Assembly (NCBI GenBank): GCA_003223555.1
Contig: QHVM01000048.1
Coordinates: forward strand, 1 to 34,133
DNA: 34,133 nucleotides
Source: Acidobacteriota bacterium
GTDB lineage: Bacteria > Acidobacteriota > Vicinamibacteria > Fen-336
Direction: 5' to 3'
The notes under the pieces are model-generated. The model ran no database searches and was not told the origin of the DNA. It was given only the letters and a program-made list of their open reading frames with translations. Within the stretch, counting starts at the first letter, position 1, and every line of letters begins with the position of its first letter. Of the stretch, positions 9,277 to 19,180 are shown piece by piece. Both the position numbers and the translations under genes were made by a program.

Positions 9277-9762
9277 ATGCCTTTCACCGCCGCCGAGCGC
9301 GAGGAGCGCATCGCGCAGTACGAGCGGGGCCCGCTGCGGCTCCGTGACGCGCTGGCCCTGGTCCCCGACGACGCGGTGCGCTGGCGGCCCGCTCCCGGGC
9401 GGTGGTCCGTCCACGAGGTCGTGTGCCACTGCGCCGACTCGGAGACCAACGCGGCCGCGCGCATCCGGTATCTCGTCGCCGAGAAGGAGCCGGTGATCGT
9501 CGGCTACGACCAGGACGAGTGGGCCCGGCGGTTCGACTACCATTCGTTCCCCCTCGAGCCCGCCCTGCGCACGGTCGACGCGGTGCGGGCGACCACCACC
9601 GTCCTGCTGCGGAAGCTGCCTGAGGCGGCATGGCGCAAGGAGGGCCGGCACAGCGAGTCGGGACGCTACACGGCCGAGGACTGGCTGCGCATCTATTCCG
9701 ACCATCTCGAGAAGCACGCCCGGCAGATCGAGCGGAACCTGACCGCGTGGCAGGAGTCTTGA
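9277..9762 (+). CDS. DinB/YfiT-like putative metal-binding protein
   Basis: This 161-residue four-helix-bundle protein of the DinB superfamily carries the usual metal histidines: one in SVHEVVCHCADSE (about residue 48) and the H-x3-H pair in YSDHLEKHARQIE (about 143-147). The PGRWSVHEVV segment is typical. Members are thiol-dependent transferases or of unknown function, and the name does not imply DNA damage induction here. The ATG at 9277 follows AGGAG. An in-frame GTG at 9226 would translate repeat sequence and is rejected. The stop overlaps the start region of modA. Confidence 0.85.
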   Translation: MPFTAAEREERIAQYERGPLRLRDALALVPDDAVRWRPAPGRWSVHEVVCHCADSETNAAARIRYLVAEKEPVIVGYDQDEWARRFDYHSFPLEPALRTVDAVRATTTVLLRKLPEAAWRKEGRHSESGRYTAEDWLRIYSDHLEKHARQIERNLTAWQES

Positions 9763-10508
9763 GGGCGCTTCTCTGGGCCGCGCTGGCGCTGCTGTCCGCG
9801 CCGGTCTCCGCGCGGGCCGACGAGTTGACCGTCTTCGCGGCGGCCAGCCTGGCCGAGGCCCTGCAGGAGCTCGCGCGGGGCTACGAGCAGCAGGCGACCG
9901 GCCACCGGGTCGTCTTGAACGTCGGCGCCTCGAGCGACCTGGCCCGGCAGATCCTGGCCGGGGCCGCGGCCGACCTCTTCTTCTCCGCCGACCGGGCCCA
10001 GATGGACGCCCTCGAGCGGGCGGGCCTCGTCCGCGGCCCCGACCGCGTCGAGGTGCTGTCGAACCTCCTGGTCGTGGTGGTGCCGGCCTCGTCGGGTGCG
10101 GCGCTCACCTCGGCGGCCGGCCTCGCCCGGCTGCACCGGATCGCGATCGCGGATCCGGAAGCCGTGCCGGCCGGTGTCTACGCCCGGGCCTGGCTCGAGT
10201 CGCTCGGGCTGTGGTCCGCGCTCGAGGAGCGCCTCGTTCCGACGCTCAACGTGCGGGCCGCCCTGGCCGCGGTGGAATCCGGCAACGCCGAGGCCGGCAT
10301 CGTGTACCGCACCGATGCCGCGCTGTCCCGGCGCGTGCGCATCGCGCTCACGGTGCCGGCCGGGCAGGGGCGGCAGATCGTCTACGTCCTCGCCCCGCTG
10401 GCGGCATCGAAGAGCGCAGCGGCGCGCGAGCTGGCGGGCCGGCTCGCCGGTCCGGAGGCCCGGCCGGTCTACGAGAAGTACGGGTTCCTGTTCATCGCTC
10501 CCCGCTGA
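9747..10508 (+). CDS. modA: Molybdate-binding protein ModA
   Basis: This roughly 253-residue periplasmic receptor for molybdate (or tungstate) has a signal peptide (hydrophobic run ALLWAALALLSAPVSARA) before the mature start DELTVFAAASL. Oxyanion-binding segments are seen as AAASLAEAL, NVGASSDLARQI and AAADLFFSAD, with the family EAGIVYRTDAA near residue 195. The start is uncertain. GTG at 9747 is used here, and TTG at 9759 (TTGA overlap with the DinB stop, AGGAG only 2 bases before it) would give the same mature protein. It heads modABC. No ModE box was found. Confidence 0.92.
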   Translation: MAGVLRALLWAALALLSAPVSARADELTVFAAASLAEALQELARGYEQQATGHRVVLNVGASSDLARQILAGAAADLFFSADRAQMDALERAGLVRGPDRVEVLSNLLVVVVPASSGAALTSAAGLARLHRIAIADPEAVPAGVYARAWLESLGLWSALEERLVPTLNVRAALAAVESGNAEAGIVYRTDAALSRRVRIALTVPAGQGRQIVYVLAPLAASKSAAARELAGRLAGPEARPVYEKYGFLFIAPR

Positions 10509-10514
10509 GCGGCC

Positions 10515-11195
10515 GTGCTGACCGCGGACGAGGCCGGGGTCGTCCTGTTCACCCTCGAGGTGGCCGCCCTCACCACCCTTCTCCTCCTGCCCCCCGGCCT
10601 GGCCAGCGCCTTCGCTCTCGCCCGCTACCGCGGGCCGGGCAAGAGCGCGCTCGAGACGCTCTTGTCGCTGCCGCTGATCCTGCCCCCGACCGCCGTCGGC
10701 CTGGCCCTCCTCGAGGCGTTCTCACGCGGCTCGGCGCTCGGCGGCTGGCTGGCCGGCCGCGGCATCGAGGTCGTGTTCACCTGGAAGGCGGTGGTCCTGG
10801 CCACCGCCGTCATGTCCTTCCCCCTCCTCGTGCGCTCGGCGCGGACCGCCTTCGAAGAGATCGACCCGCGGCTGGTGGGCCTGGCCCGGACGCTCGGCTG
10901 CTCGCCCGCCGCGACCTTCTTCCGGGTGACACTGCCCCTGGCCTGGCGCGGCGTGCTGGCCGGCGCCGTGCTCGCCTTCGCCCGCGCTCTCGGCGAGTTC
11001 GGGGCCACGGTGATGGTGGCCGGCAACATCCCCGGCCGGACCCGGACCCTCGCCCTCGCCATCTTTCACGACAGCCAGGTCGGCCGGGACGACCGGGCGG
11101 CCGTGCTGGCGGGCGTGACCGCCGTCCTGGCCTTCGCCGCCCTGTGGACGACCGAGTGGCTGTCCCGGCGGCTGGAACGGAGGGCGGAGGAGTGA
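10515..11195 (+). CDS. modB: Molybdate ABC transporter permease ModB
   Basis: This 226-residue permease is the normal ModB length. It has about five or six membrane helices, the EAA loop LARTLGCSPAATFFRVTLP, and the family signature ARALGEFGATVMVAGNIPG. The start is GTG at 10515, six bases after the modA stop, with a weak ribosome site, so coupling to modA is likely. The stop is overlapped by the modC GTG. It forms a homodimeric channel in the inner membrane for molybdate uptake. Confidence 0.93.
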   Translation: MLTADEAGVVLFTLEVAALTTLLLLPPGLASAFALARYRGPGKSALETLLSLPLILPPTAVGLALLEAFSRGSALGGWLAGRGIEVVFTWKAVVLATAVMSFPLLVRSARTAFEEIDPRLVGLARTLGCSPAATFFRVTLPLAWRGVLAGAVLAFARALGEFGATVMVAGNIPGRTRTLALAIFHDSQVGRDDRAAVLAGVTAVLAFAALWTTEWLSRRLERRAEE

Positions 11196-12256
11196 TCGAG
11201 CTGAGCTTCGAGCTGCCCCTGGCCACGGCCGAGCTGCGGGTCGAAGCGGAGCTTCCCGCCGCGGTCACCGCGGTCATGGGCCCTTCCGGCGCCGGCAAGA
11301 CGTCCCTGCTGGAGGCGATCGCCGGACTGCGGCGAAAGGCCCGGGGCCGGATCGCCTGCCACGACGTCGTGTTCCTGGACAGCGCGCGCCACCTGCGGCT
11401 GGCTCCGGAGCGGCGGCGCGTCGGATACGTGCCCCAGGATGCCGGGCTGTTCCCCCACCTGACCGCCCTCGGCAACGTCCGCTTCGGGGCGCGAGCCGGG
11501 ACGCGGCAGGCGGAGACGGCCATCGAGACGCTGGAGATCGGCCCGCTCCTCGCGCGCTATCCGGCCTCGCTCTCCGGGGGCGAGAAACAGCGGGTGGCCC
11601 TCGCCCGCGCCCTGGCCACCGCGCCGCGGATGCTGCTGCTCGACGAGCCGCTGGCCGCCCTCGACGTCGAGCTGAAGGAGCGTGTGCTGCCCTACCTCAT
11701 GCGCATCCGCGACGAATGGAAGGTCCCGATCCTGTACGTGACCCACAACGTCGGCGAGGCGCTCGCGCTGGCCGGCCACGTCCTCTTCCTCCGCGCGGGA
11801 CGGGTCGAGGCCCAGGGGGCCCCGCTGGACCTGCTCTCCTCACCGGGTCTCTCGGCGGAGGCCGAGGCCGGCATCGAGAACCTGCTCCGCGGCCGGGTGG
11901 CCGCCCACGATCCGGCCGGGGGCATCACGCGGATCGAGCTCGACGGGAAGCTCGCGCTCTCGGTGCCGCTGGCCGAATCGCGTCCCGCCGGGTCGGCGGT
12001 GACGGTCGCCATCCGGGCCGAGGACGTCCTCGTTTCCACCGCGCCGGTCAAAGGCCTCTCGGCCCGGAACGTGTACGAGGCGCGGGTGGAGGGTCTCGAG
12101 CGGACCGGCGTCGACGTCACCCTGCGGTGCGCGATCACGGGGTCCGGCCGGCCGTGGCTGGTGCGGGTCACCCCGGCCGCGGTCGAGGCGCTCGGTCTGG
12201 CGGTGGGCACCACGGTGTGGCTCGCCGTCAAGAGCCACTCGGTCCGGATCGTCTAG
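11192..12256 (+). CDS. modC: Molybdate ABC transporter ATP-binding protein ModC
   Basis: This 354-residue ATPase has Walker A GPSGAGKT at 30-37, Q-loop YVPQDAGLF, signature LSGGEKQR, Walker B MLLLDEPLAALD and the switch His in YVTHNVGEAL. From about residue 285 a C-terminal TOBE/Mop-type molybdate-binding domain follows (GSAVTVAIRAEDVLV to the end), which is typical of ModC and supports the substrate call. The GTG start lies in a GTGA overlap with modB, preceded by purine-rich GGAGG. The last base of its stop codon is the first base of the 110-bp tandem repeat. Confidence 0.94.
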   Translation: MIELSFELPLATAELRVEAELPAAVTAVMGPSGAGKTSLLEAIAGLRRKARGRIACHDVVFLDSARHLRLAPERRRVGYVPQDAGLFPHLTALGNVRFGARAGTRQAETAIETLEIGPLLARYPASLSGGEKQRVALARALATAPRMLLLDEPLAALDVELKERVLPYLMRIRDEWKVPILYVTHNVGEALALAGHVLFLRAGRVEAQGAPLDLLSSPGLSAEAEAGIENLLRGRVAAHDPAGGITRIELDGKLALSVPLAESRPAGSAVTVAIRAEDVLVSTAPVKGLSARNVYEARVEGLERTGVDVTLRCAITGSGRPWLVRVTPAAVEALGLAVGTTVWLAVKSHSVRIV

Positions 12257-14178: not shown

Positions 14179-14934
14179 TCAAGGGGGCAGGAGTCTTTCG
14201 ACCGCACGTACGGTTCCTTGGATGCGAAGCCGGGAGGTGTCCACCGTGCGGTCGGCCTCCGCGTAGAGGCGTTGCCGGGCGGCCAGCAGCCGGCGCAGCT
14301 CCGCCATCGCTTCCGGGTGGTCCGCCATCGGGCGGCGGTCGCCTTGCTGCACCACGCGGTTCCAGTGGTCCTCGGGATCGGCCCGTAGCCAGACCGTGAG
14401 CGCGCGGCGCCGCAGCAGCGAGTAGGTCTCGGGCGAGGTCACCAGCCCGCCGCCGACGGCGAGCACGGCCGGCCGGCCGGCGGCCCGGGCTTCATCCAGC
14501 ACGCGCTCCAGCGTCTCCCGCTCCAGCCGGCGGTAGTACTCCTCGCCATGCAGGGCGAACAGCTCGGTCAGGGACATCCCGGCGGCCTGCTCCACGCGCC
14601 GGTCCAGCTCCACGAAGGGCACCCTCCGTCGCCGGGCCAGCCGGCGGCCGATGGTGGTCTTGCCCGCGCCCCTCAGCCCAAGCAGCGCGATGACGGAGGG
14701 GCGATCCGTCCCGCCGTCCGGCTCGGCGAGCAGGGCGGTGGGCGTGGAGCCGAGGGCCCGGGCCAGGTCGGCCAGACGGCGCACCGAGATGTTGGCCTGG
14801 CCGCCCTCCACCCCGATCAGGAAGCGGCACGAGAGCCCCGAGCGCTCGGCCAGGGCGTTCAGCGTGTAGCCCCGCTCGGCGCGCCGCTCGCGCACCCGGC
14901 GTCCCAGCGTCTCCAACAGCCGATCGGCCCCCAT
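14179..14934 (-). CDS. boxR: BzdR/BoxR-type regulator: XRE HTH fused to shikimate-kinase-like domain
   Basis: This 251-residue regulator has an N-terminal XRE helix-turn-helix (residues 8-66; TLNALAERSGLSCRFLIGVE). A short linker leads to a shikimate-kinase-like domain (80-251) with P-loop GLRGAGKTT at 86-94, ELDRRVE (Asp111), AVGGG at 159-163 and lid QGDRRPM at about 197-203. This fusion is known in Azoarcus BzdR/BoxR, where the kinase-like domain senses benzoyl-CoA and releases repression. The position opposite boxCB strongly supports that role here. Its predicted transcript start is only a few bases before the ATG, so translation may be nearly leaderless. The inverted repeat overlapping its own -10 suggests autoregulation. 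Confidence 0.93.
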   Translation of the reverse strand: MGADRLLETLGRRVRERRAERGYTLNALAERSGLSCRFLIGVEGGQANISVRRLADLARALGSTPTALLAEPDGGTDRPSVIALLGLRGAGKTTIGRRLARRRRVPFVELDRRVEQAAGMSLTELFALHGEEYYRRLERETLERVLDEARAAGRPAVLAVGGGLVTSPETYSLLRRRALTVWLRADPEDHWNRVVQQGDRRPMADHPEAMAELRRLLAARQRLYAEADRTVDTSRLRIQGTVRAVERLLPP

Positions 14935-14944
14935 CGCGCCCAGT

Positions 14945-14987
14945 GCACTATATTACACTATCAGCCGCTGTCAATGAACTATAGTGC
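14945..14987. promoter_or_regulatory. Putative BoxR operator: inverted repeat GCACTATA-N27-TATAGTGC
   Basis: An 8-bp perfect inverted repeat (14945-14952 and 14980-14987) flanks the boxR promoter. A third partial copy, CACTAT, starts at 14956, ten bases after the first. The left arm covers the boxR -10. The right arm abuts the boxC -35. The word TGCA, described in BzdR operators, occurs once at 14944. Binding by BoxR is inferred from position and symmetry. Confidence 0.6.
14947..14974 (-). promoter_or_regulatory. boxR promoter (TTGACA-N16-TATAGT)
   Basis: On the minus strand TTGACA (14969-14974) and TATAGT (14947-14952) are separated by 16 bases, close to the sigma70 consensus. A transcript start near 14940 would leave about 6 bases before the ATG at 14934, so boxR mRNA may be almost leaderless. 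The -10 is contained in the left arm of the operator-like inverted repeat. Confidence 0.7.
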
Positions 14988-15016
14988 TTGACGCCCGGGG
15001 GCGGGACGGCTATGCT
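14988..15016 (+). promoter_or_regulatory. boxCB promoter (TTGACG-N17-TATGCT)
   Basis: TTGACG (14988-14993) and TATGCT (15011-15016) have the ideal 17-base spacing and precede the boxC ATG by 28 bases. The right arm of the inverted repeat ends at the base before the -35, so a bound repressor would block polymerase. Confidence 0.7.
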
Positions 15017-15044
15017 GAGAGCCACTGGGAGCAGGGGTCGTTGA

Positions 15045-16697
<1,653 letters not shown>

Positions 16698-16741: not shown

Positions 16742-18157
<1,416 letters not shown>

Positions 18158-18163
18158 GACGGC

Positions 18164-19180
18164 ATGAAGACGGTGGTGCTCCAGGAGCCGGGCCGGCTCG
18201 TCCTCTCCGACGGTCCGGCCCCGGCGCCCCCGGCGAGCGACGAGGCGCTCGTGCGAGTCCGGCGCATCGGCGTCTGCGGGACGGACTTCCACGCCCTGCG
18301 GGGCGACCAGCCTTTCTTCGCCTATCCGCGGATCCTCGGCCACGAGCTGGGCGTGGAGCTGCTGCAAGCGCCGGCCAACCCGGCCGGTCTGCGGGCGGGC
18401 GACCGCTGCGCGGTCGAGCCGTATCTGGAGTGCGGCCGCTGCGTGGCCTGCCGGCGAGGGCGCACCAACTGCTGCGTGGAGCTGCGGGTGCTCGGCGTCC
18501 ATGTGGACGGCGGGATGAGGGAGATGATCACGCTTCCCCTGCGCAAGCTCCACCGCTCGGACTCCCTTTCGTTCGAGCAGCTCGCCCTGGTCGAGCCCTT
18601 GAGCGTCGGCGCCCATGCCGTGGGCCGGGCCGGGCTGGAAGCGGGCGAGACGGTGCTCGTGGTGGGCACGGGTCCCATCGGGCTGTCGGTCATCGCCTTC
18701 GCGCGGTCGGCGGGAGCGCGGGTGATCGCCGCCGACGTGAGCGAAGGGCGGCGGGAGTTCTGCCGCCGGCATCTGGGCGTCGAGACCGCGCTGGCGGCCG
18801 ACGGCGAGATGGAGACCGCGCTGCGCGCGGCCACCGGAGGCGAGATGCCCACGGTCGTATTCGAGGCGACCGGCAACGCCGCCTCGATGGAGCGCTCGTT
18901 CGGCCTCGTGGCCGGCAGCGGGAAGCTGGTCCTGGTCGGCCTGTGCCAGGGGCGCATCGCGTTCTCCGACCCCGAGCTTCACCGCCGGGAGATGACCGTG
19001 CTCAGCAGCCGGAACGCCGTGGGGGCCGACTTCGAGCGCGTCCTCTCCGCCGTCGAGGCCGGCCGCGTCGACGTTCGCCCGTGGATCACGCACCGGGCGC
19101 CGCTGTCCGAGGTGAGCGAAGCCCTGCCGTCCTGGGGCCGGCCGGAGACGGCTGCGCTCAAGCCGATGGTGGAGGTGTGA
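18164..19180 (+). CDS. Zinc-dependent alcohol dehydrogenase family protein
   Basis: This 338-residue medium-chain dehydrogenase carries both zinc sites. The catalytic ligands are Cys38 and His60-Glu61 (GHE), and the structural lobe is C-x2-C-x2-C-x7-C at 90-104. The NAD(P) site is GTGPIG in VLVVGTGPIGLSVIAFA. It resembles the L-idonate/galactonate 5-dehydrogenase or RspB group. It starts 6 bp after boxB and so belongs to the box operon. It is not BoxD, which is an aldehyde dehydrogenase acting on the semialdehyde, though reduction of a pathway intermediate is conceivable. Its 3' end overlaps the convergent MFS gene by 23 bp. Confidence 0.87.
   Translation: MKTVVLQEPGRLVLSDGPAPAPPASDEALVRVRRIGVCGTDFHALRGDQPFFAYPRILGHELGVELLQAPANPAGLRAGDRCAVEPYLECGRCVACRRGRTNCCVELRVLGVHVDGGMREMITLPLRKLHRSDSLSFEQLALVEPLSVGAHAVGRAGLEAGETVLVVGTGPIGLSVIAFARSAGARVIAADVSEGRREFCRRHLGVETALAADGEMETALRAATGGEMPTVVFEATGNAASMERSFGLVAGSGKLVLVGLCQGRIAFSDPELHRREMTVLSSRNAVGADFERVLSAVEAGRVDVRPWITHRAPLSEVSEALPSWGRPETAALKPMVEV

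Follow-up and report, generated by a model that had tools for sequence, protein, structure and literature searches.

The gap between boxR and boxC in an acidobacterial genome contains two 16-bp palindromes that match the known BoxR operator. With a probability of approximately 0.88, it constitutes a BoxR-controlled divergent promoter, at which two BoxR dimers would repress both promoters until their release by benzoyl-CoA. This reading was derived from the sequence and from analogy with the regulator BzdR of Azoarcus. The operator, the regulator, and the ligand were already known, and the switch itself was largely expected. The additions are the phyla, the divergent boxR/boxCB form, and a quantified operator-promoter layout, newly documented in Acidobacteriota. 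The known benzoyl-CoA switch would thereby be extended from Betaproteobacteria to Acidobacteriota, Myxococcota, and Planctomycetota.

The boxR-boxC locus

The window, which is the whole stretch of 34,133 nucleotides analyzed, encodes a regulator and box catabolic genes on either side of a 110-bp gap (14935-15044). The features of the locus are given below.

14179-14934, minus strand: boxR, 251 amino acids, XRE-type helix-turn-helix (HTH) fused to a shikimate-kinase-like domain; ATG at 14932-14934
14943-14958, no strand: predicted operator A, GTGCACTATATTACAC; matches the BoxR consensus at 12/16 positions; includes the boxR -10
14947-14952, minus strand: boxR -10, TATAGT, from the promoter scan; inside operator A
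14956-14961, no strand: extra CACTAT, read from the sequence; one helical turn from the first arm of the inverted repeat
14969-14974, minus strand: boxR -35, TTGACA, from the promoter scan; touches the left edge of operator B
14974-14989, no strand: predicted operator B, ATGAACTATAGTGCTT; matches the BoxR consensus at 14/16 positions; flanked by back-to-back -35 boxes
14988-14993, plus strand: boxC -35, TTGACG, from the promoter scan; overlaps the right edge of operator B
15011-15016, plus strand: boxC -10, TATGCT, from the promoter scan
15033-15037, plus strand: likely Shine-Dalgarno of boxC, AGGGG, read from the sequence; 7 nt 5' of the ATG
15045-16697, plus strand: boxC, 2,3-epoxybenzoyl-CoA dihydrolase (TIGR03222, 810 bits, above the curated cut-off)
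16742-18157, plus strand: boxB, benzoyl-CoA 2,3-epoxidase subunit (TIGR03225, 723 bits, above the curated cut-off)
18164-19180, plus strand: zinc alcohol dehydrogenase-type gene (Pfam ADH_N/ADH_zinc_N); 6 bp after boxB

The boxR product was identified by NCBIfam NF006015 (279 bits against a cut-off of 204) and shares 44% identity with a BoxR/BzdR-type protein of Aromatoleum anaerobium. As in other members of the BoxR/BzdR family, an N-terminal XRE HTH and a C-terminal shikimate-kinase-like domain were both present (Pfam HTH_3 and SKI), with an intact Walker A motif (GLRGAGKT), and the gene adjoins box catabolic genes, boxC and boxB being directly divergent from it. The dehydrogenase gene downstream probably belongs to the same operon as boxB; it reached no NCBIfam equivalog cut-off.

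Two promoters and two palindromes in the gap

A promoter scan of the gap found exactly two promoters, where 0.1 was expected from shuffles. These were TTGACA-N16-TATAGT for boxR on the minus strand (14974 to 14947, 11/12) and TTGACG-N17-TATGCT for boxC on the plus strand (14988-15016, 9/12), the same two that the initial annotation had proposed. Only about 5 nt separate the boxR start codon from the predicted transcription start, and no Shine-Dalgarno sequence is evident there; the boxR transcript may thus have almost no leader. Many relatives likewise have site A close to the boxR start. A DNA hairpin was also considered and rejected, as the 110-nt strand folds no better than its shuffles (z -0.75).

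Both promoters had been described as sharing one 8-bp inverted repeat. The arms are indeed present, with GCACTATA at 14945-14952 and TATAGTGC at 14980-14987. A perfect repeat of this length occurred in 6.5% of first-order Markov shuffles of the gap region, and 19% of the 110-bp windows on the contig contained one, so that the repeat alone is not beyond chance. Moreover, the two arms turned out not to be halves of one element: one is the left half of palindrome A, the other the right half of palindrome B, and each forms the outer side of its own palindrome.

The published BoxR/BzdR consensus is a 16-bp palindrome, ATGCACTATAGTGCAT, with a TGCA-N6-TGCA core (PMC6449761). The core reads TGCA-CTATAT-TACA in site A and TGAA-CTATAG-TGCT in site B; neither site has both TGCA boxes perfect, and each retains the palindromic form of a BoxR/BzdR operator. 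Multiple sites, another property of these operators, are likewise present, with A and B 31 bp apart from center to center. With a position matrix built from other loci, the window being left out, B scored 21.3 bits and A 16.5, and the next best site in the 34-kb window scored 2.0. The match to the known palindrome is far beyond chance. The suggestion that the site differs from the TGCA repeats of Azoarcus did not hold, since the BzdR operator regions OR2 and OR3 are themselves TGCA(N6)TGCA palindromes (PMC6678401). As A and B match ATGCACTATAGTGCAT, the site is of the Azoarcus type.

The right half of operator A is degenerate (TTACAC), and A may therefore be weak. The extra CACTAT noted in the initial annotation starts 10 bp away from the start of the CACTAT within the first arm. 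The extra copy was not seen in the boxR upstream regions of relatives, and a role as a third operator was ruled out for this lack of conservation. The word looks like an accidental or degenerate half-site and is probably not functional.

Conservation of the twin sites

BoxR homologues and their upstream DNA were collected from relatives of the window genome and from named genomes, where the best named BoxR matches were in Acidobacteriota. Locus L007, from the family of the window genome, proved identical to L034 of a Vicinamibacteria genome, which makes this class the most likely source of the window. The resulting set comprised 93 distinct boxR loci from Acidobacteriota, Myxococcota, Planctomycetota, and Proteobacteria, which are related by descent and do not represent independent events. 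In 80 of the 93 loci, a first site exceeded the 99% level of shuffles, and in 72 a second site exceeded its own 99% shuffle threshold. Among these 72 two-site loci, the spacing was 30-34 bp in 58 and 41-43 bp in eight, and none had a spacing of 35-40 bp. Between loci of equal spacing, identity was 66-67% at the sites, compared to 27-28% in the linkers and 28-29% in the flanks. Hence, the DNA between the sites drifts, whereas the sites themselves and the distance separating them are maintained. Conservation in orthologous loci had been named in the initial annotation as a test that could refute the element, and the element passed.

Within the family of the window genome, the twin-site pattern occurred in all seven genomes that have a full-length BoxR, once per genome, and in none of the seven lacking one. 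Because the pattern was written after these loci had been viewed, finding it there is not independent evidence; its absence elsewhere and its restriction to a single place are. A reversed control pattern had zero matches in the family. The proposal that one regulator controls both its own gene and boxCB, a prediction from sequence comparison, is strongly backed by this conservation and by the co-occurrence with boxR.

Placement of the operators on the promoters

The sites occupy regular positions on the promoter elements. The boxR -10 was at +4 from the start of site A in most divergent relatives with a recognizable boxR promoter, and the TTG of the boxR -35 was at +30/+31 from the same point in 27 of the 46 divergent loci (+29 in the window). 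Similarly, the TTG of the boxC -35 was at +14 from the start of site B in 22/46. A TTG beside B followed by TA at a spacer of 16-18 bp was found in 21 of the 46, whereas shifted controls averaged 0.2. In proteobacterial loci with a non-divergent boxC, the module was often mirrored, with a -35 beside one site and a -10 inside the other. Additionally, upstream of boxR in loci L060 and L075 (and nearly so in L078), both -10 boxes lie inside BoxR palindromes 43 bp apart, and the divergent promoters of L060 and L075 appear to share one self-complementary -35, TTGCAA.

A broader interpretation with four parts was also formulated, and all four together are given somewhat less than even odds. It holds that BoxR control is a fused operator-promoter module across several phyla that evolves as a unit, that the palindrome center supplies the -10 and the palindrome edge the -35, that the module exists in two forms (31-32 bp, with B between back-to-back -35s, and 41-43 bp), and that many BoxR regulators are without the linker thought necessary for ligand response. 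Evolution of operator and promoter as one unit would follow from the use of the palindrome center as a -10 and of its edge as a -35.

Alternative interpretations

An operator for both promoters made of one wide inverted repeat, with 8-bp arms and 27 bp between them, is favored by the outer arms, which outrank all other half-sites in the window and pair perfectly there and in several relatives (L003, L004, and L006). However, the inner half-sites, overlooked in the initial annotation, are kept in relatives and complete two palindromes, for example GCGCACTATAGTGCGT and ACGCAGTATAGTGCTT in L006. Published sites are single TGCA-N6-TGCA palindromes (PMC6449761, PMC6678401), and in the 41-43-bp class the arms separate further while each palindrome stays whole. 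The single repeat was rejected on the conservation of the inner half-sites, and is considered very unlikely to be the operator. Still less probable is that the palindromes bind another regulator and that BoxR acts elsewhere. Binding of BoxR to the palindromes is a prediction, which leaves room for this idea, but the motif and boxR co-occur across phyla (and in 7/7 against 0/7 genomes within the family), and the motif was assigned to BoxR/BzdR by both experiment and comparison (PMC6449761, PMC6678401). The least credible alternative, to which almost no weight is given, is that no operator exists and that TATA-containing -10 boxes resemble half-sites as chance AT-rich promoter words. An 8-bp inverted repeat is not rare and site A does overlap a -10, but chance would hardly keep 16-bp palindromes across phyla beside unconserved linkers, or leave them unique in the genome.

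The origin of the spacing is more finely balanced. It may well be, at a little under an even chance, that the 31-32-bp distance follows from promoter geometry alone, with dimer-dimer contacts of BoxR playing no part in it, a view compatible with the preferred reading of a BoxR-controlled divergent promoter. Site A holds a -10 and B adjoins a -35, and a 17-bp spacer accounts for the 31-32-bp class; the fixed distance of the boxR -35 TTG from the -10 in site A (27/46 loci) and the mirrored use of the sites in proteobacterial loci also agree with it. In contrast, B lies approximately one helical turn further away (41-42 bp) in L055, L062, and L067 with no promoter reason, as the boxR -35 there no longer touches B, although such loci are few and related by descent. 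The empty interval at 35-40 bp and the cooperative binding of BzdR in Azoarcus (PMC6678401) also argue for contact between dimers.

Predicted mechanism and the inter-domain linker

Repression by BzdR involves binding to palindromes of this kind that overlie the promoter, and benzoyl-CoA releases the protein by binding to its C-terminal domain (PMC6678401, PMC3602430). In Azoarcus, the TGCA-N6-TGCA palindromes are bound cooperatively by dimers (PMC6678401). By analogy, two BoxR dimers would occupy palindromes A and B. Since operator A covers the boxR -10, BoxR would repress its own gene; from operator B, which sits between the back-to-back -35 boxes in contact with each, it would block the boxCB promoter and help to block that of boxR. 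Once benzoate is activated to benzoyl-CoA, the ligand would bind the shikimate-kinase-like domain and BoxR would leave the DNA, after which both transcripts would rise, including that of boxR (negative feedback). In Azoarcus, four dimers act at the three operator regions of the promoter, and OR1 by itself gave repression that was not inducible (PMC6678401); a two-site promoter may thus behave differently.

The linker between the HTH and the kinase-like domain is approximately 10 residues in the window BoxR, compared to approximately 40 in BzdR (residues 91-130). The long linker of the prototype is therefore absent; its length was not treated as family-defining, because it is a trait of the prototype and not of the curated family model. 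Short linkers were also found in L006, L071 (a planctomycete), and L081 (a proteobacterium). An artificial BzdR-kinase chimera without the linker gave no response to its ligand (PMC3602430), and by this analogy the short linker of the acidobacterial BoxR would count against the preferred reading. These regulators offer a natural test of how the ligand-binding signal passes to the DNA-binding domain.

Comparison with known systems

Sites described in 32 Betaproteobacteria (Suvorova and Gelfand, 2019; PMC6449761) have the same 16-bp palindrome ATGCACTATAGTGCAT and, as in the window, are multiple, several helical turns apart, and adjacent to boxR and box genes. In those genomes, boxR mostly lies on the boxCBA side and diverges from boxD/bclA. 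In the acidobacterium it is boxR that diverges from boxCB, and no site was detected at bclA or boxD, which are located elsewhere. The bzd PN promoter of Azoarcus (PMC6678401) resembles the window in its XRE/shikimate-kinase type of repressor and in TGCA-N6-TGCA palindromes that overlap promoter elements. Its inducer is benzoyl-CoA, as is predicted here by analogy. Only the Azoarcus promoter has the operator regions OR1-OR3 with four dimers, a DNA loop, and activation by AcpR under anoxia (PMC6678401), in contrast to the two sites 31 bp apart, with no sign of a third, and the aerobic box genes of the window. In the open-licence literature, no work on Acidobacteria with boxB and benzoyl-CoA was found. 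The window thus offers a very small two-site divergent promoter that is predicted to respond to benzoyl-CoA, and two palindromes approximately three helical turns apart on promoter elements provide a signature for annotating BoxR control in uncultured genomes.

The rest of the genome

The matrix scan covered the collected loci, while the search with up to three mismatches covered the whole 5.39-Mb genome, where site B was the only match to the consensus. Two benzoate-CoA ligase candidates and boxD were scattered on other contigs, with no BoxR site within approximately 1.5 kb on each side of them. A wider BoxR regulon in this genome was rejected on these two results, though weaker sites may exist elsewhere. 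In addition, boxA (TIGR03224) was not found in the 98%-complete genome, although boxB, boxC, and boxD were present; a different reductase may supply BoxB with electrons. Given the ligase candidates and boxD without nearby sites, and boxA not detected, BoxR seems to be a local switch that acts on its own gene and on boxCB, together with the adjacent dehydrogenase gene. Paired TATANT words were observed at one other place (C43:9774), and a modA-modB-modC molybdate transporter cluster (9630-12256, plus strand) is located on the boxR side of the gap.
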